The notes beneath the pieces were generated by a model. It did no database searches. It was not told the DNA's origin and saw only the letters and a program-made list of their open reading frames with translations. The translations under genes were made by a program, and so were the position numbers. This document shows, piece after piece, positions 2,642-53,660 of a stretch of 64,000 bases of DNA. How positions within the stretch are numbered: position 1 is the stretch's first letter; each line of letters starts with the position of its first letter. Source of the stretch: a bacterium (lineage in GTDB: Bacteria; Verrucomicrobiota; Verrucomicrobiia; Limisphaerales; J093); assembly GCA_021823625.1 (NCBI GenBank), contig JAKANS010000004.1, positions 1-64,000 of the forward strand, written 5' to 3'.

Positions 2642-3322
2642 TCAGCCAACCCGCTCCGCCTCCAAGGCCGTCGCGTTGGCCAATTCCATCGTGTCCTCCC
2701 CCATCCGCATCGCGTAAATCCGGCGCGCCGTCAACTGTTCCACCACCCGGTCGGGGACCGCCCAACTGCCCAGCACCGCAATCAGCCGCTTCCCCCGGTA
2801 CTCCGGGAAGAACTCGAAGAACGCGCCCACCTTGCCCGCAAAGGCTTCCACGTGTTCGATCCGCGGCGTGGACTTCGCCTCGCCCAGAATCACCGCCTCC
2901 GGCCCCACCACCAGCGTGTCGAACTCGTCCTCCACATCGGGCCGGAGCGCACTGCGCCGGCACCGCCGAATCATGAAATCCTCAATCCGCCCAAACTGGA
3001 AATGCTCGCGCGCCAGCCGGCGCAGGTTCGGCGCCAGAATGTCTTCCACGATCGTCCCCATCTTGTTGGCCAACTCGCCCCATTTCTTGTCCAACTCCCG
3101 CTTGGACTGACGCATTTCGTCTTGAAACCGCGCCAAGCGTGCCTCGGCCAAACGGTTTCGCTCTTCAGCCGCCTGGTGTCGTGCCTCGGCCAAACGGTTT
3201 CGCGCCTCGGCGGCCTGGTCGCGGTCCTTGGCCTGCTTGTTGAGCAACGCCATCCCGGCCATGAACTGGCCGAACATCGCTTCCAGCCACTCCACCCGGT
3301 CTTCAACAGTCGCATAAGCCAT
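2642..3322 (-). CDS. coiled-coil protein with C-terminal PD-(D/E)XK-like nuclease domain, paralog A
   Basis: Heptad-rich N-terminal half; FDTLVVGPEAVILGEAK (D-Xn-ExK); highly similar to 4128..4829. Confidence 0.65.
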   Translation of the reverse strand: MAYATVEDRVEWLEAMFGQFMAGMALLNKQAKDRDQAAEARNRLAEARHQAAEERNRLAEARLARFQDEMRQSKRELDKKWGELANKMGTIVEDILAPNLRRLAREHFQFGRIEDFMIRRCRRSALRPDVEDEFDTLVVGPEAVILGEAKSTPRIEHVEAFAGKVGAFFEFFPEYRGKRLIAVLGSWAVPDRVVEQLTARRIYAMRMGEDTMELANATALEAERVG

Positions 3323-3389
3323 AACGCCCTCACAATAACGCCAACCGGCATTCCCGGCAAGAACCCTCGCGCGCCCGGCCCGGCGCCTC

Positions 3390-3416
3390 GGACGCCTCGG
3401 AGAAACGTCCCCACCT
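3390..3416 (-). repeat. REP-like hairpin (degenerate copy)
   Basis: ggacgcctcggagaaacgtccccacc, GTGG foot on minus strand. Confidence 0.55.
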
Positions 3417-3609
3417 TCCGCCGTTGGAATTGCCACCGAGAGGCAAAAAGCTCAAAAGCAAAGGAAGCCGGCGCCAAGAAGCCTCGTTCACTCGCCAGGT
3501 AAAGCAGGATCATCCCTCGAAACCAGCGTCCCCGGCCCTGTTTCCGCGCTTTTTGTGTCTTTTCGTGGCTCTTCAACCTAAACCGGAACGGCCGTTAAAA
3601 TTCGGGTGG

Positions 3610-4127: not shown

Positions 4128-4829
4128 TCAGCCAACCCGATCCGCCTCCAAAGCCGCCGCGTTGGCCAGTTCCATCGTGTCCTCCCCCATTCGCATCGCG
4201 TAAATCCGGCGCGCCGTCAACTGTTCCACCACCGGGTCCGGCATCGCCCAACTGCCCAGCACCGCAATCAGCCGCTTCCCCCGGTATTCCGGGAAAAACT
4301 CGAAGAACGTGCCCACCTTCTCCGCAAATTCTCCCCCGTATTCGATCCGCGGCGTGGACTTCGCCTCGCCCAAAATCACCGCCTCCGGCCCCACCACCAG
4401 CGTGTCGAACTCGCTCTCCTCGGCGAGCCGGTCCGGCCGCCGGCGCGTGCAACGAATCATGAACGCCAGAATCGTCTCGAAGCCAAAATGCTCGCGCGCC
4501 AGCCGGCGCAGGTTCGGCGCCAGAATGTCCTCCACGATCGTGCCCATCTTGTTGGCCAACTCGCCCCATTTTTTGTCCAGCTCCCGCTTGGACTGGCGCA
4601 TCTCCGCCTTGAATTCGCTCATTTCGTCTTTGAACGCGCGCATCTCCTGTTCAAACCGGCTCATGCGTTCCTCGGCCGCCTGGTTGCGTTTCTCGGCCGC
4701 CTGGTTGCGTTTCTCGGCGGCCTGGTCGCGGTCCTTGGCCTGCTTGTTGAGCAACGCCATCTCGGCCATGAACTGGCCGAACATCGCTTCCAGCCACTCC
4801 ACCCGGTCTTCCACGGTCACAAAAGCCAT
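4128..4829 (-). CDS. coiled-coil protein with C-terminal PD-(D/E)XK-like nuclease domain, paralog B
   Basis: Near-duplicate of 2642..3322 including about 55 bp of upstream sequence; extra coiled-coil heptads (RNQAAEKRNQAAEK). Confidence 0.65.
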   Translation of the reverse strand: MAFVTVEDRVEWLEAMFGQFMAEMALLNKQAKDRDQAAEKRNQAAEKRNQAAEERMSRFEQEMRAFKDEMSEFKAEMRQSKRELDKKWGELANKMGTIVEDILAPNLRRLAREHFGFETILAFMIRCTRRRPDRLAEESEFDTLVVGPEAVILGEAKSTPRIEYGGEFAEKVGTFFEFFPEYRGKRLIAVLGSWAMPDPVVEQLTARRIYAMRMGEDTMELANAAALEADRVG

Positions 4830-4945
4830 AACGCCCTCACAATAACGCCAACCGGCATTCCCGGCAAGGACCCTTGCGCGCCCGGTCAATCACGAACTGC
4901 TGGTCCGGAGCCAGAGACCAGACGACAGACATCACACGTCAGCGA

Positions 4946-5215
4946 TCAGAAATCAAAAAGGCGGCGGGATTGTTGATCATCGAGCCCGGCATCCGGCCGA
5001 TTTCTTGGCATCGTGACGCAAGTTCTGCATGCTGCCGCTTCCGAGATGTAGCCGCAGTCTTTGGCGAAATCGAGGGAGGAATCACTCTCGCTGTTCTCGC
5101 TCACCGAGCCGTAGCCTCTATTAGCCGGAGGCCGTGCACAATCCGTGAGCTTGCTTACAAAATGTGCTTCGTGTCTCCGCTTTGCCCCCTCCGAGGGCGT
5201 AGCCTCATTTGCCAA
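4946..5215 (-). pseudogene. C-terminal fragment of four-helix-bundle (23S rRNA intervening sequence-type) protein
   Basis: AKRRHEAHFVSKLTD ... SLDFAKDCGYIS are landmarks of the C-terminal half of that family; interrupted by extra sequence. Confidence 0.6.
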
Positions 5216-5892: not shown

Positions 5893-8478
5893 CTACTCGC
5901 GCCTTGCGCGAGTGTGCGCCTCGCGCACCCGGTCAATCACAAACTGCTGTTCCTCCTCCATAAGGCAACTCGAGCTCGGCAGACAGATGCCGCGTCGGTT
6001 CAGGTCCTCCGCCACCTCGCCGCCGACACATTCATAGCCACGATACAGCGGCTGCGTGTGCATGGGTTTCCAAACCGGACGCGCTTCCACGTTCGCCGCA
6101 TCCAGGTAGCGAATCAGGTCGGCCGCCGACATTCCGAACCGGGCCTCGTCGATCAAGAAGCAACTGAGCCAGCGAGTGTGCAGCGAGTTCCGATTTCCGA
6201 TTTCCGATTTTCGACTTCCAACTTCTGCCTTCTCCCTTCCATCTTCTAACTTCTGACTTCTGACTTCTGACTTCTGACTTCCCGCTTCTTGCTCCTGACT
6301 TCCCGCTTCCAACTCCTGGCTTCCGGCTCCCGACTTCTCGGCTCCAAACTTCGCTTCCGGTTGCGGTTCGACTCCGGGCAGATCCGTAAAGGCCAGCCGA
6401 TACCGTTCGAACACCGCGCGGCACTCCGCAATTCTCTCTTCCAGTACTTCCAGTTGCCCCAAGGCAATCCCGGCCAGTACGTTGCTGAGGCGGTAGTTAT
6501 AGCCCAGTTGAGAATGCACGTACTCGTGCGTCCCGGCCGGGTCGGGATCACACGCCTGCGTGCTCCAGTGACGGGCTCGTTGGATCCAGTCCGGGTGGCG
6601 CGCCGTGAGCAACCCTCCCCCGGTTGACGTAATCACCTTGTTGCCATTGAAGGAGAACGTCGCGACGTCGCCGAAGAGACCGACCGGGCGGCCTTTGTAG
6701 GTTGCGCCCAAGGCTTCGGCCGCGTCCTCAAGCAAGCCCACCTCATATCGCCGGCACAGCTCGAGAATCGAATCCATGTCTGCCGGCTGCCCAAAAAGGT
6801 GGACGGCGACTACCGCCCGAGGCAGGGTTCCCGCCTCCGCCTGTTTCTTTAAGAAATCCCCGAGCAACTGCGGATCGAGGTTCCAAGTGGCGCGTTCGCT
6901 GTCCAAAAGAACCGGTCGGGCGCCCAGATAGAGCACCGGGTTGACGCTGGCCACGAAGGTGAGACTGGGCACCACCACTTCATCACCGGCCCGCACTCCC
7001 AATAAGCGAAGCCCTAGGTGGATGGCAGAAGTTCCGCAGCTCACGGCCAACGATGGCCGTGTGAGCCGTTCGCTGAACTGCGCTTCCAATGCATCAATAT
7101 TCGGGCCCACGGTGGAAAGCCAATTCGATTCGAAGGCGGCCTGGATGTACGCCATCTCGCGACCGCTGGCATGGGGCACGGACAACCTCACCCGCGTTTC
7201 CCGTCGCTGCCCAGGGTGACCGAATGGGCGAACGGTCTCGACCGGTTCGCTGACCGACACATCACACCGATTGGTGACCAGCGGACCGGCCTTCCCAGCC
7301 TCGCCGGAAAGCACCTCTCGTATCGCCTCTGCGACGTAGGCGGTCTCATCCGGGGTAAGCGAGGGATATATCGGCAGCGAGACACAACCCCGCCACAGGC
7401 GTTCAGCATTGGGATATTCTTCTGGTCGGAGGCGGTAATGCTCCGCGTAGTAGCGCAACCGGTGCACCGGTTTGTAATGGACGCTGGTTCCCACCCCCCG
7501 TCGGGCCAGTTCCTCGATGAACTGGTTGCGGGTCAACGGCGCCGAGTCGCGGAGCACGACGGGGAACAAGTGCCAAGCATGATCTGCGAAAGGCACTTCC
7601 AGCACAGGTAAGTCCAGATGCGGACAATCCGCCAAGGCGCCGTAATAAGTGTGTGCGCAGCGTTCCCGGCTCTGACGGAGTGTCTCCGCGCGTTGGAGTT
7701 GGGCCAACCCGATCGCGGCGTTAACATCCGGCATGTTGTATTTGTAACCGGGGGCGATGACGTCGTACTCCCACGAAGGCTTGTCGGAAGTAAACCGGTT
7801 CCACACGTCACGGTCGATGCCGTGCAACCGCATCACCTTGCACCGCCGGTACAGGGCTTCGTCGGCCGTCGTGAGCATCCCCCCTTCCCCGGTCGTGATT
7901 GTCTTGTTGGCGTAGAAGCTGAAGCAGGTGACGTCTCCAAAGTTGCCCACCATCCGTCCGGCTCGCCGCGCAGGAAAGGCGTGGGCGGCATCCTCCACCA
8001 CCCGAATGCCATGCTGTCGGCAGAGGTCCGTGATCCCTCCTCCGCCCGACCGCACCATCGCAGCGGATTGGCCACCAAAATGGACCACCACTAATACCTT
8101 CACGTTTGGGTGCCGCCTAATGGCGTCTGCGACGATTTCCGGTGTTAGCAGTGCCGTCCCGTAATCCACATCCAGAAAAACCGGATCGCCTCCGAGGTAA
8201 CGCACCACCTCCGCGGTGGCGGTGAAGGTCCAGGTGGGCACAAACACCTTCGATCCCGGACCCACTCCGAGACACTCCAGGGCCAGATGCAAGGCCGAAG
8301 TGCAAGAGTTGACAGCGCATGCATAGGGTGCACCGACGGCTTCTGCGAAGCGCTGCTCGAACTCCATAGCCTTCCCGGCCGTCGTCAGCCAACCGCTTTC
8401 GAGTACCTGGCGAACGTATTCGAGTTCGTGGCCATCGCAAACCACACGGGCATAAGGAATTTTCCGGTTTACAGGCAT
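5893..8478 (-). CDS. tandem fusion of two DegT/DnrJ/EryC1/StrS-family PLP aminotransferases
   Basis: Two complete copies; catalytic-Lys contexts SFYANKTITTGEGGM and SFNGNKVITSTGGGLL; single open frame. Confidence 0.85.
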   Translation of the reverse strand: MPVNRKIPYARVVCDGHELEYVRQVLESGWLTTAGKAMEFEQRFAEAVGAPYACAVNSCTSALHLALECLGVGPGSKVFVPTWTFTATAEVVRYLGGDPVFLDVDYGTALLTPEIVADAIRRHPNVKVLVVVHFGGQSAAMVRSGGGGITDLCRQHGIRVVEDAAHAFPARRAGRMVGNFGDVTCFSFYANKTITTGEGGMLTTADEALYRRCKVMRLHGIDRDVWNRFTSDKPSWEYDVIAPGYKYNMPDVNAAIGLAQLQRAETLRQSRERCAHTYYGALADCPHLDLPVLEVPFADHAWHLFPVVLRDSAPLTRNQFIEELARRGVGTSVHYKPVHRLRYYAEHYRLRPEEYPNAERLWRGCVSLPIYPSLTPDETAYVAEAIREVLSGEAGKAGPLVTNRCDVSVSEPVETVRPFGHPGQRRETRVRLSVPHASGREMAYIQAAFESNWLSTVGPNIDALEAQFSERLTRPSLAVSCGTSAIHLGLRLLGVRAGDEVVVPSLTFVASVNPVLYLGARPVLLDSERATWNLDPQLLGDFLKKQAEAGTLPRAVVAVHLFGQPADMDSILELCRRYEVGLLEDAAEALGATYKGRPVGLFGDVATFSFNGNKVITSTGGGLLTARHPDWIQRARHWSTQACDPDPAGTHEYVHSQLGYNYRLSNVLAGIALGQLEVLEERIAECRAVFERYRLAFTDLPGVEPQPEAKFGAEKSGAGSQELEAGSQEQEAGSQKSEVRSQKLEDGREKAEVGSRKSEIGNRNSLHTRWLSCFLIDEARFGMSAADLIRYLDAANVEARPVWKPMHTQPLYRGYECVGGEVAEDLNRRGICLPSSSCLMEEEQQFVIDRVREAHTRARRE
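6184..6353. repeat. degenerate 7-bp tandem repeat array (about 23 units) inside CDS
   Basis: ttccgat ttccgat ttccgat tttcgac ttccaac ttctgcc ttctccc ttccatc ttctaac (ttctgac)x4 ttcccgc ... Confidence 0.95.
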
Positions 8479-8523
8479 GATCGTAAATCCATCGTTGGGT
8501 CGCCAAGGTCCCAAAGTCACCAG

Positions 8524-25799: not shown

Positions 25800-27280
25800 G
25801 GCAGTCTCTGAATCAGTTCAATGGCCGGGTGTGCGCCGACTTGGGTGCTCCCGACCTTGCGGTAGCCCGCCCGCTCAAACGCGCGAATCGAGGCTGCGTT
25901 TTCCGGCTTCGTGAACGCGTGGATCACGCACACCTGCCGTTCTTCGTGAAGACGCTGCGAAGCACGGCGGATCAGTTCACTGCCGAAGCCGCGGCCGCGG
26001 GCACGCCGATCCACGCTGACCGAGATCACCGCCTCAGCATTGTTGAGGTCGAACCTTACCTGGCCAATCGGCGCACCGGAACTGTTGTCGGCGATCAGGA
26101 ACACACAGTCTGGATCGCTCCGTCGCGCCTCGAACCAGCGCGTGTGTGACTCCCAAGGGATCGGCTCGGTGTTGAACGAAACGGCTCGAACTTCGGGATC
26201 GTTCGCCCACTCCCACACCTGGCGGCAATCCTTCGGTTCTGCGGGCCGTAAAGTCATCGCCGCTCCGGTCAATTCGCCCACGACGCGTTCGCCACCTTTT
26301 CCGTCAACCATCGTCCGCCCCAACCGACTCATCCTCGCTCGCCCCAGACGGTCATTTAGAAGTTCGTGTAAGTCTGCGCTCAAATCGCCTGGCGCTGCAG
26401 CGCCGGTTCCAGCCCGCCGTGCCACATTGCTGGCCGCGAGCGCTTCGGCTACCTTCAGTTGATTTTCCGCCAACACCAGCACGAGGCTGGGCAGGCCCAT
26501 GAACGCCAGTTCCCAAGCGGTAGAACCGCCAGCCGCGATGGCCATGTCGGCCCAAGCCATCAGCTCCGACATGTTCGCCGCGTTCACCACCAATTCCATT
26601 GCCGATCGCCGATTGCCGATCGCCGATTTCAATTCTTCCAAGTTCGGATTGCTTCCGCCCACCACGACTTTGCATTCGACATCCAGCCCTTGCAGCGCCT
26701 GAACGACCTTGCCGGTGACATTATCCGGGTCGCCGCCGCCGAGGGTGACCAGCACCTTGCGGGCGACGGGCGGAATCTCCCGTGTCCAGTCCCGCCAAGC
26801 TTGGAACTCGCGGCGCAGGAGCGCGTAGCGCGGTCCCAACAGGAGGCGGGTGTGGGGCTTGCGCCGGACGTAGAGCGCGGCGTCCGCGCCGAGGTTCTGG
26901 TTCAGGACCAGGTCGGCCTCGTACTCACCCGCGTGGCCGTAATCGTCGAGGAACAGGATCCGGAAGCCGGCAGCCATGAGCAGCCGTTGATAGTCCGCGC
27001 CAAACTGGTAACCGTCAACGACCACCCACGCGGCACCGTGTTCGCGCGCACAGGCGATGGTGACCTCCGCGTCGTCCACGCTTCCGGGTGTGGCGGCCAG
27101 AGAACGGGAAACGAATCCTTCTGCCGTCAGTCGTGCTTCCAGGGCGGAGGTGATTTCGGCCGAGAGGAAGTGGACCTGCTCGCGAGGCTGCCAGGCCTGC
27201 GCCAGTGCGAGGCAGCGCATGACGTGGCCCGTACCCATGCGCGGGCTGGCGTCCGCGCGAACGAGAAGCGTTTCATGCAT
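25796..27280 (-). CDS. pseG: fusion of UDP-2,4-diacetamido-2,4,6-trideoxy-L-altropyranose hydrolase (PseG) and GNAT acetyltransferase (PseH-like)
   Basis: N-term LVRADASPRMGTGHVMRCLALAQAW; C-term GNAT RRARGRGFGSELIRRASQRL. Confidence 0.9.
   Translation of the reverse strand: MHETLLVRADASPRMGTGHVMRCLALAQAWQPREQVHFLSAEITSALEARLTAEGFVSRSLAATPGSVDDAEVTIACAREHGAAWVVVDGYQFGADYQRLLMAAGFRILFLDDYGHAGEYEADLVLNQNLGADAALYVRRKPHTRLLLGPRYALLRREFQAWRDWTREIPPVARKVLVTLGGGDPDNVTGKVVQALQGLDVECKVVVGGSNPNLEELKSAIGNRRSAMELVVNAANMSELMAWADMAIAAGGSTAWELAFMGLPSLVLVLAENQLKVAEALAASNVARRAGTGAAAPGDLSADLHELLNDRLGRARMSRLGRTMVDGKGGERVVGELTGAAMTLRPAEPKDCRQVWEWANDPEVRAVSFNTEPIPWESHTRWFEARRSDPDCVFLIADNSSGAPIGQVRFDLNNAEAVISVSVDRRARGRGFGSELIRRASQRLHEERQVCVIHAFTKPENAASIRAFERAGYRKVGSTQVGAHPAIELIQRLP
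26601..26629. repeat. 7-bp tandem repeat (4 units) inside pseG
   Basis: gccgatc gccgatt gccgatc gccgatt; encodes SAIGNRRSAM. Confidence 0.85.
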
Positions 27281-36867: not shown

Positions 36868-36984
36868 CGGTCAGTCCTCACTTTTGACATGGCGGGGCCC
36901 GGGTGGGGCCGAAGGCGGGCGCATCAAAACGGAAAGCGGAAACAGCCAAGCGCCAACACTGAACATTCAACATTCAACTCGGAA
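36868..36984. repeat. dispersed CTCACTTTTGACA repeat (copy A) followed by 7-bp periodic array
   Basis: cggtcagtcctcacttttgacatggcggggcccgggtggggccgaaggcgg, then acggaaa gcggaaa cagccaa gcgccaa cactgaa cattcaa cattcaa ctcggaa. Confidence 0.8.
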
Positions 36985-37131
36985 CAGAAAGGGGGCGGCC
37001 TATACCAGAGGTCGGATGACGGATTTTTTAACCACGAAACACACCCAATACACGAACCATTCGGCAAAAGGCTAAAGGGTTGACATTCTTCCCGGTGAAG
37101 TAGCTCTGTACTTCACGGGGCAGGGAAAAAA

Positions 37132-37881: not shown

Positions 37882-38080
37882 ATTCATTAACCACAAAGAA
37901 CACCAAGGGCACAAAGTCATCATTCGAAAATAGAAATTGGGAAAACAGGCCCCGTGGAGTAAAGGCATGCCCGTTGAATACGAACAAGGTTCCACGGACC
38001 CAGCGCACTCCACAGGCCAGGCGCACTTCACGGGGCAAGGAACATCAATACTGGCAACTGACTACGGACATTTCTAAAAA

Positions 38081-38140
38081 GCTGAAGGCTGAAAGCTGAA
38101 ATCACAGACCAGACGACGGAGGACGGAGGGCTGGCCACTG
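38081..38140. repeat. 7-bp periodic array, intergenic
   Basis: gctgaag gctgaaa gctgaaa tcacaga ccagacg acggagg acggagg gctggcc. Confidence 0.75.
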
Positions 38141-38199
38141 GACAACGCGGCCTTGACCGGGTCGTAGCGAGGGGCACCGCATGAGGAGAGCTTTTCAAG

Positions 38200-39439: not shown

Positions 39440-39622
39440 CAGAAGGCATGCGGCAGAGGGCAGCCCGTGGAATGGGCGGCCCCGCGAACTCAAACCCCAG
39501 AGCCGCCGCCCTTTCACAGGCCAGTTCAATGACAATGAATTCCTTCACTCCCCTCAGCGGCATCAAAGCAGAACGTTGGGAGCTGAAAGCAGACAGCGGA
39601 GGCCGGAGGTTCAAAAATGGCC

Positions 39623-44772: not shown

Positions 44773-44828
44773 GTAGGGCCCGCTCTCCAACCGGGCCGCA
44801 TCGGACGATTCGGAGAAACGTCCCTACC
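44773..44828. repeat. two convergent REP hairpins
   Basis: GTAGGGCCCGCTCTCCAACCGGGCC and ggacgattcggagaaacgtccctac. Confidence 0.85.
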
Positions 44829-46590
44829 GCTGCTTGAATTCGTCGTATGACCTGGAGCCGCACGACAGTTCCACCGGCAGCGGCGTGTCTTCGGGAAGAT
44901 CCAGGCACTTCAGGATCCCTGGCCGCACCTCCCGAAACCGGTAACCGGACTCCGGACAAACGAGCTGGCCATCCGCGCCACCGAGCTTCAGCATGTGCCC
45001 GTGCCGGCTCATCCAGCCCTTTTGCCGGGCCGGATTCCCCACCATCAGCGCGTAGTCGGGCACGTCTTTCGTCACTACCGCGCCGGCGGCGATGAAGCAA
45101 TACCGGCCCAGCGTGGTGCCGCACACGATGGTCGCGTTGGCCCCGACGGTCGCGCCGCGCTTGATCACGGTCTTTTCGTAAAGGCTGTGTCGGTTGACCT
45201 GCGACCGCGGATTGGTGACGTTCGTCAGCACACAGGAAGGGCCGAGGAACGCGTCATCCTCGATCTCGGCGCCGGTATAGACCGACACGTTGTTCTGAAT
45301 CTTGACGTTGTTGCCGAGTTTCGCGCCGCTGGCCACGTTCACGTTCTGCCCGAGCACGCATTTCTCCCCGATCTGGGCGCCTTTCTGCACGTGGCTGAAA
45401 TGCCAGATCTTCGTCCCTTTGCCGATGATCGCACCGTCGTCCACCACGGCGGTGGGGTGAACGAAGTAATCGAGTTGGAGAGGCTGAGGGTTGAGAGTTG
45501 AGGGGTGAGCGCCAGTGACCGGCGGCTCGGAAGCCGGCGCTGGCTGCCTGCGGGCTTCTGACTTCTCACTTCTGACTTCCAGCTCCTGTCCTACCCCATC
45601 GCCGTCATGCTCCAGGCTGCGTTGGGCCATCTGGAGCACCTGCAGGACGCGCAACCCTTCGCGACCGTCAGTGCGCGGGGCAACGCGCTCGCGACAGCAG
45701 TCCAGGAAGTGCTGGCACTCGTTGCGGAGCGGCTCGGATTCGGGCACCTCGACCGGTTCCCCCTTTGCCTTGTTCGGGGTGGGAGTCCGCCCGTCGGTCC
45801 AGGTGAGGTAGTGCCGATAAAACACAAGTTTCTCCGCCCACGGCTTCGTGTCGTCGAACACCGCCATACCGTGCGAGCCGACGACCGTGAGCTTCTGTTC
45901 CTTGAAGGGGTTGAGCCAGGTCACATAGACATGCGCCCGCACCCCGCCGGCGAAGCGCAGCGCGGTGAGCGTGGTGTCCGCCACCCCGCGCGTCAGGTAA
46001 GACTCACCCACGCAGCGCACCTGCTCGGGAACCTGGTTGCCAGCCAGCGAAAGGATGACCGAGAGGTCGTGTGGCGCGAAGCTCCACAGCGCGTTCTCTT
46101 CACGGCGAATCTTGCCGAGGTTCAGCCGGTTGGAGGCGATGTAGTGGAGTTGGCCAAGGTCGCCTTGGGCGACCAACGCCTGCAGCCGCTGAACACAGGG
46201 GTGATATTGGAGCAGGTGGCCGACCATCAGGACGCGCCCGGCGCGCTCCGCCAAGGCCACCAACTCCTGGGCCTGAGTTTCCTCCAGGCACAGTGGCTTC
46301 TCGACGAAAACGTCTTTGCCGGCCAGCATCGCTGCCTTCGCCAGGTCGTAGTGCAGGACCGCCGGAGCGGCGATCGCCACCTTCGTGATCGCGGGATCGC
46401 GCCACACTGCCTCCACGTCCGCGGTCTTTCGGACTTCTCCGTATTCCGCGCCGTATCCGGCAAGGGTCTGCGGGCTGGCATCGCACAGCGTACGGAGCGT
46501 GCCGAGCGTGTTAAAGTTGCGCGCAAGGTTCTTGCCCCAATAGCCGGCGCCGATCAGGGCGAGATCGCGAGGAACGGGAGTGGTAATCAC
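44824..46590 (-). CDS. fusion: Gfo/Idh/MocA dehydrogenase (WbpB/WlbA-like) + hexapeptide acetyltransferase (WbpD/WlbB-like)
   Basis: [23 protein letters not shown] ... FVEKPLCLE; then [42 protein letters not shown]. Confidence 0.9.
45479..45590. repeat. two 7-bp periodic blocks in the inter-domain linker
   Basis: gaggctg agggttg agagttg aggggtg ; gcttctg acttctc acttctg acttcca gctcctg. Confidence 0.8.
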
Positions 46591-53163: not shown

Positions 53164-53410
53164 TCACGAACCGTTGCGACGAAAATGACGGCACCCAAAA
53201 CCACACCGTTCAATACGAATTGAACGAAGTAGTCGAACTGCCGCCGGGAAGCAACTGTAAAATTCACCGGACAAGTGACGAATTCGTGACGAGTTGCAAA
53301 CCCGCCTGGCAAGCGCCGCGGCAAGCCGGATCGCCCCGCGCCGAGCCTTGGCATGGAGCCAGGGCGGCGCTAAAGTCCGGCCGAAGGAAGGGAGAACCAG
53401 GCCGGCAGTC

Positions 53411-53562
53411 CTGAAATCCGAAACCCGAAACCCGAGCTCCGAGAATGCTTGATCCGCGGGGCGGCGGCGCCGCTGGGGGAGCTGTGGATTCGGGACTGCG
53501 GACTGCGGACTGCGGACTGCGGATTGCTTTCGGCATTCGGTCTTCGGGTTTCGGATTGGGAA
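53411..53562. repeat. two 7-bp periodic arrays in the divergent intergenic region
   Basis: tgaaatc cgaaacc cgaaacc cgagctc cgagaat ; gattcgg (gactgcg)x4 gattgct ttcggca ttcggtc ttcgggt ttcggat. Confidence 0.9.
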
Positions 53563-53660
53563 TAGACCGAACCGACTTTAGAGCGGCCCTGGCACGGGGC
53601 CGCCCCGCACCACCTCCGCTTTACGGCGGTCAATCAATCTGGCATGGAAGACAGCGCAAC

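Follow-up and report, generated by a model that had tools for sequence, protein, structure and literature searches.

A loop in the second domain of a fused sugar aminotransferase is filled with 7-bp repeats read in frame, and the same loop holds period-7 sequence, mostly of other heptamers, in six related genomes. We consider it probable that dispersed heptanucleotide repeats colonise genes and that those arrays survive which have a stop-poor coding strand, a flexible site and a length divisible by three. The window (the whole 64,000-nucleotide stretch of DNA analysed) belongs to a 6.1-Mb draft genome of 326 contigs, called G000 here, and statistics on repeat runs were taken from sampled stretches of this genome totalling 926 kb.

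A heptamer array within a sugar aminotransferase

Followed on the minus strand from 6343 to 6183, the array keeps a single register over 23 heptamers, along which the AAGTCAG class drifts to AAATCGG and AAGCGGG. Its period-7 self-match was the maximum of the window (0.70 over 6184-6353, compared with a window mean of 0.257 and s.d. of 0.047), and TRF called it at 6184-6352 with periods of 7, 14, 15 and 21. At 174 bp it was also the longest period-7 run in the 926-kb sample, where the runner-up measured 101 bp. The longest perfect stretch consists of four GTCAGAA-type units near 6253-6280, and the remaining units are degenerate. The array does not lie at the 5' end of the gene but sets in near residue 726 of the 875-residue protein, and the tryptic peptides bordering it are LAFTDLPGVEPQPEAK and NSLHTR. 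The initial annotation had described about 23 consecutive heptamers in the second aminotransferase domain; this was borne out, with 23 units in register and in frame, and the encoded peptide that it gave agrees with the translation of ORF 5893-8520 on the minus strand.

The same annotation took all three minus frames to be open through the array, which proved correct for two of the three: the frame of ORF 6032..6424 reads through the whole array and meets a stop only at 6034, whereas the frame of ORF 6246..6551 closes at an internal TAG (Table 1). If every unit were AAGTCAG, none of the three frames would contain a stop, and each would encode the cyclic peptide VRSQKSE with the same seven codons, because a 7-base unit cycles through all frames. 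The agreement between frames is thus a matter of arithmetic and no special adaptation. The opposite strand of the AAGTCAG unit contains TGA. A slip within a perfect array on the favourable strand would create no stop, yet the change of frame would be harmful downstream of the array.

The family profile, the lysine motif and the fold all place the host enzyme among the DegT/DnrJ/EryC1/StrS aminotransferases. The SFNGNK lysine motif and EDAAE were invariant in the alignment of the second domain, the tandem fusion was also present in two related genomes (G005, 856 aa; G006, 848 aa), and by Pfam the adjoining genes encode a bacterial sugar transferase and a glycosyltransferase. An AlphaFold2 model of the second domain, built with orthologues in the input, had a mean pLDDT of 81.9 and a pTM of 0.81; the array residues (286-338) had pLDDT values of about 26-30, and the rest were mostly near or above 90, except at about 216-233. 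The top Foldseek matches were solved sugar aminotransferases (7b0m, PglE 4ztc and perosamine synthase 3bn1). The simplest picture offered by the model is an intact enzyme fold carrying a floppy, hydrophilic, disordered loop. We infer that the enzyme is expressed and active and that the linker is nearly neutral.

Table 1. Positions of the array, its host gene and two further coding heptamer runs in the window
Feature	Position	Strand	Evidence or remark
Fused tandem DegT/DnrJ/EryC1/StrS sugar aminotransferase, 875 aa, carrying the array	5893..8520	(-)	Pfam PF01041, E 1.9e-199
Second aminotransferase domain, 435 aa	5896..7200	(-)	Query for ortholog searches and AlphaFold2 model
Loop expanded to 183 nt, flanked by ...PGVEP and HTRWLSCFL	6181..6363	(-)	21-27 nt in 80 named homologues
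Heptamer array, 23 in-register units of AAGTCAG class, coding, in frame	6183..6343	(-)	TRF and period-7 self-match
Predicted disordered loop, domain residues 286-338, pLDDT below 50	6187..6345	(-)	AlphaFold2
TAG in one alternative minus frame, within the array	6246..6248	(-)	First base 6248, AAGTTAG unit
Short period-7 run of GCCGATC type; the 501-aa gene around it matches glycosyltransferase-28-C and GNAT	26584..26645	(-)	TRF, Pfam
Coding heptamer region, aa 332-370 of a GFO/IDH/MocA - hexapeptide fusion (44827-46590)	45481..45594	(-)	Pfam, period-7 runs

The same loop in related genomes

Orthologues in related genomes were located by six-frame search, and the loop was delimited by the conserved PG-EPQPEA region and HTRWLSCFL. 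All 80 named homologues, drawn from many phyla, had the short loop; the two closest, from MAGs called Verrucomicrobia subdivision 3 and Opitutia, were 52-53% identical. That scan of named genomes did not recover the family of G000 itself, which, judging by these two homologues, looks related to Verrucomicrobia. A loop of 24-30 nt, depending on the cut, was also found in G006, G007, G011, G013, G017, G047 and G057. The expanded loops, by contrast, measured 183 nt in G000, 213 nt in G012, 132 nt in G001, 99 nt in G005, 69 nt in G003, 357 nt in G004 and 207 nt in G142, with a period-7 self-match of 0.45-0.72, and all seven lengths were divisible by three and in frame. Loop length is therefore rigid elsewhere (21-27 nt) and is expanded here (69-357 nt) mainly by heptamers. 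Five further genomes (G041, G145, G308, G309 and G310) had mildly longer loops of 36-66 nt without a clear period of 7.

The loop arrays of the six relatives consist mostly of heptamers other than that of G000. The units in the expanded loops were GTCAGAA; GGAGATG, GGGAGCG and CAACCAT; GGACCAA; degenerate heptamers beginning with TC; and GAGAGTC. The heptad peptides differ between genomes (VRSQKSE, TKDQGPR, NHQPSTI and QNSALEI) and are mostly hydrophilic. In G004, G012 and G142, two different arrays flank other sequence. A single clade of array carriers was not rejected (p-AU 0.267), a value that does not decide between one old insertion and several. The initial annotation had proposed a frame-agnostic, stop-free linker. 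The part concerning frame tolerance is supported by the in-frame insertion into a predicted disordered loop and by orthologous lengths that are all divisible by three; the stop-free part fails in the one frame that stops inside the array.

Period-7 arrays across the genome and in other genes

Allowing up to one mismatch, we found RRARYYR-class arrays on 16 contigs, a few of which may be due to chance; reversed-pattern controls were not clean, as heptamer arrays are also matched by the degenerate pattern in reverse. The 926-kb sample contained 45 period-7 runs, compared with a mean of 18.6 for periods 5, 8, 10, 11 and 13, so that background among the 45 is of the order of 19. With genes called by a simple codon model, 20 of the 45 runs lay in genes and 25 outside, against a coding fraction of 0.77 (P value = 1.9e-6, with background in both classes). 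Arrays therefore appear to be under-represented in genes, yet are not excluded from them. The initial annotation had suggested such a scan over the whole genome, with the fraction inside coding sequence, and the figures above supply both for the sampled 926 kb; the in-gene pattern goes beyond its guess, recurring in many genes and several genomes. As in STRR-like repeats, the 7-bp unit is tandem and the arrays are dispersed. Most of the arrays examined lay in long ORFs on the strand with GAAGTCA-like units and others lay just upstream of a start codon; the rule of a stop-poor coding strand follows in part from having searched for open frames.

According to Pfam, the array-bearing genes include those for PheRS beta (PheT), RibD, MutL, a UvrA-like protein, a carbamoyltransferase, a U32 peptidase and a Cas3-like helicase, and the ValRS gene contains in-frame runs of other heptamers. 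The arrays thus occur in frame in unrelated genes, as do the Rickettsia palindromic elements, which are regarded as selfish DNA. Within genes they seem to sit mostly in linkers or loops, to judge by Pfam borders in a few genes; some of the arrays are short. The carbamoyltransferase array (aa ~359-400) separates a domain that ends at 347 from one that starts at 439, the MutL array of G000 starts at aa ~402, just after a domain whose last residue is 398, and the RibD array is an insertion relative to the solved RibD 2b3z. In PheT, the array takes the place of a variable linker, leaving the length unchanged with respect to G005, whose PheT is 79% identical.

We compared the interdomain linker of MutL across eleven genomes. 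Period-7 arrays were present in four, with GTCAGAA-like and CCGGCAT-like units in G000, AAGTTCG-like units in G001, GTCAGAA-like units in G002 and CAATCCG-like units in G005; six of the eleven had no array, and G006 had a G-rich low-complexity run only. In G000, G001 and G002, which belong to one genus, the array begins directly after a common ALL--HA motif, and all eleven linkers had lengths that were multiples of three.

The unit found in the aminotransferase tended to be the one common in its host genome. Counting occurrences of three tandem units with up to one mismatch in ten genomes (overlapping matches and those in the aminotransferase included), we found GTCAGAA 10 times in G000, 4 times in G001, twice each in G003 and G004 and not in the others. 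GGACCAA was counted 11 times in G001 and 14 times in G003 and was absent from the other eight, including G000 of the same genus as G001; TCAACCA was counted 22 times in G012, twice in G004, twice in G006, once in G007 and not in the others. For the three units tested, the enzyme's unit was thus a common unit of its genome (GTCAGAA in G000, GGACCAA in G001 and G003, TCAACCA in G012), which suggests that arrays exchange or spread sequence between sites. A shared mutational bias is a possible alternative cause of the match.

Further observations concern single arrays and elements. The arrays at 45481-45594 lie exactly at the junction of the GFO/IDH/MocA oxidoreductase and the hexapeptide repeat, as if marking or bridging a gene fusion. 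The ValRS gene (L118:13358-16744) combines two period-7 runs, both in frame, with a Pfam match to LPD3 at aa 431-542; the LPD3 segment falls in a stretch missing from the alignment with solved ValRS and is an unusual insertion for a synthetase. In a relative, a higher-order array with a regular 14-bp period (TCAACCATCGACCA) runs to about 14 copies at G012:C207:7831-8033, which suggests recent expansion of heptamer pairs. A YYRR step, as in TCAGAAG, TCAACCA and CCGAAAT, occurs in 32 of the 45 period-7 consensus units of the 926-kb sample (pattern YYRRNNN, raw count), and the Beggiatoa unit TCAGTTA and the NeuO unit TCAAGAC also fit it. Period-7 runs of other units lie outside called genes at 4907-4962, 36924-36988, 38070-38147 and 39568-39609 of the window. 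Two similar neighbouring minus-strand genes (2642-3436 and 4128-4889), without a Pfam match, contain 21-bp coding tandem repeats (RNRLAEA/RNQAAEK heptads) and look like recent paralogues. At 53380-53590, a stretch with no called gene, lies an element of ~200 bp with facing heptamer arrays (CCGAAAC ... TTTCGGG) and 28-nt inverted arms; it has about 14 genome copies at 75% identity or more and an RNA fold z-score of only -2.0, and looks MITE-like.

Origin of the arrays and comparison with known systems

In the reading that we prefer, heptanucleotide arrays would arise, spread and turn over chromosome-wide, in and between the genes of the lineage, and we infer that slippage, together with spread or conversion between arrays, supplies the units. 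An array in a gene would persist only if it occupies a flexible loop or a linker between domains, if its net length is divisible by three, and if the coding strand is the one where the heptamer contains stops rarely or never. Gain or loss of units would then alter the length of a linker and not its character, because each frame of a perfect array reads one cyclic seven-residue peptide. The aminotransferase loop would be one such tolerated site, filled by different heptamers in several relatives. Repetitive DNA seems able in this way to rewrite protein linkers without breaking genes. More tentatively, linkers may evolve in concert with non-coding repeats, a spreading heptamer being copied or converted into the same tolerated loops and linkers of unrelated genes and ousting the previous heptamer with the frame kept, so that genome-wide repeat dynamics, not gene history, would set the linker sequence; we see this as conceivable but on the doubtful side.

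The array might instead be a phase-variable contingency locus as in NeuO, where a slipped-strand change of one heptamer would switch a probable surface-polysaccharide enzyme on and off. Such switching is conceivable, since the enzyme would be cut short by a single slip: a one-unit change puts the last ~95 residues out of frame, and the alternative frames stop in the array or at 6034. The sugar transferase and glycosyltransferase neighbours would suit such a role, and NeuO shows that a 7-bp coding unit can work in this way (PMC3046976). As a main role, however, phase variation is set back by the degeneracy of the units, at most four of which are perfect in a row, which should reduce slippage, by the orthologous loops being in frame in all seven genomes, and by like arrays in PheT, ValRS and RibD, genes whose switching off should kill the cell or come at a cost. 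The NeuO array, moreover, lies at the 5' end and this one deep in the gene, and we regard the switch as unlikely. We think it rather improbable, too, that a mobile element with heptamer ends entered the loop, by one ancestral or by repeated insertions followed by local slippage and decay, the match of units reflecting the element family active in each genome. The dispersed ~200-bp element with its 14 or so good copies, the two different arrays around other sequence in the loops of G004, G012 and G142, and the p-AU value for a single carrier clade all fit this origin. Against it, the aminotransferase array showed no sign of a transposase, terminal repeats or a target duplication, the dispersed element has another unit (CCGAAAC / TTTCGGG) and lies mostly outside genes, and the PheT linker was replaced by an array without added length.

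Selection for a functional linker, whose basic and acidic heptad peptide would bind a partner, a membrane or a nucleotide sugar chain, could account for one position being kept expanded in seven genomes and for the mostly hydrophilic peptides. The peptide sequence is not kept, however, and the lengths range from 69 to 357 nt, with only the frame and the hydrophilic character persisting, which makes this explanation very doubtful. An assembly artefact is worth weighing in a 326-contig draft, in which repeats are prone to misassembly, but it is the least credible of these explanations and extremely improbable, because seven separately assembled genomes have period-7 sequence at the same protein position, always in frame; the fused ORF is likewise common to G005 and G006.

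If the colonisation of genes by dispersed heptamers is the right explanation, a non-triplet microsatellite would be a working route by which the disordered linkers of conserved enzymes are lengthened and rewritten with the frame kept. Ohno reportedly proposed that repeats of oligomers whose length is not a multiple of three could serve as frame-proof coding matter; a paper of his from 1987 on oligomeric repeats is listed in PMC2759123. Here that idea could be watched across a family, with one loop in seven genomes with different units as the test system. For annotators, SEVRSQK-like peptides common to unrelated proteins would mean repeat DNA and not homology. In the open-access literature, we found no account in which units that follow the host genome repeatedly fill one loop and the same linkers in conserved enzymes across a bacterial family, and nothing relevant on heptamer arrays in Verrucomicrobia; recurrence at the same site with units following the host genome appears to be new.

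Coding heptamer arrays as such are not new, and two systems speak against the lack of a known coding role on which the initial annotation had remarked. For the heptanucleotide array that is translated in frame in NeuO of E. coli K1, an effect on activity has been measured, and a binding role has been suggested for the RLKTQDS heptads of this enzyme (PMC3046976). Its poly-psi VNTR (AAGACTC) resembles the present array in being a 7-bp coding repeat of in-frame length, three units of which make one seven-residue heptad, in belonging to an enzyme of surface sugar metabolism, and in that the NeuO peptide was disordered and not resolved in the crystal (PMC3046976). In contrast, the NeuO array stands two bases behind the start codon, consists of 2-93 identical units and serves phase switching (PMC3046976), whereas the aminotransferase array is internal and degenerate, lacks a long series of identical units and varies in unit between relatives. 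A 2015 paper described TAACTGA heptamers that lie within ORFs and can be translated on one of the two strands (PMC4679880). These repeats of Beggiatoaceae, cyanobacteria and Bacteroidetes are likewise dispersed, with one strand filled with stops and the other translatable with a seven-residue period (LSVISYQ), and a few of them lie within ORFs; they differ in having one fixed unit and in being mostly intergenic, just upstream of start codons, those within ORFs falling mostly in hypothetical proteins or at the ends of proteins (PMC4679880). The arrays described here have many units and occupy internal loops and linkers of conserved enzymes.

The G-rich heptamers of Xanthomonas and Nostoc are also dispersed 7-bp arrays that vary in length between relatives and are, as the arrays here seem to be, under-represented in genes, and polymerase slippage has been proposed for their period of 7 (PMC4692102). 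Their G-tract units were studied for G-quadruplexes, however, and 7-11% are intragenic in xanthomonads, with no coding role discussed (PMC4692102). The Rickettsia palindromic elements, which are regarded as selfish, resemble the present arrays in being dispersed DNA found in frame within unrelated genes, but they are conserved palindromic elements of ~150 bp (PMC10969869), whereas here the repeats are direct heptamers whose units vary between relatives. The enzyme itself shares sequence family, lysine motif and fold with the DegT/DnrJ/EryC1/StrS aminotransferases PglE and perosamine synthase, from which it differs in its tandem two-domain fusion and in the expanded, predicted-disordered loop of its second domain.
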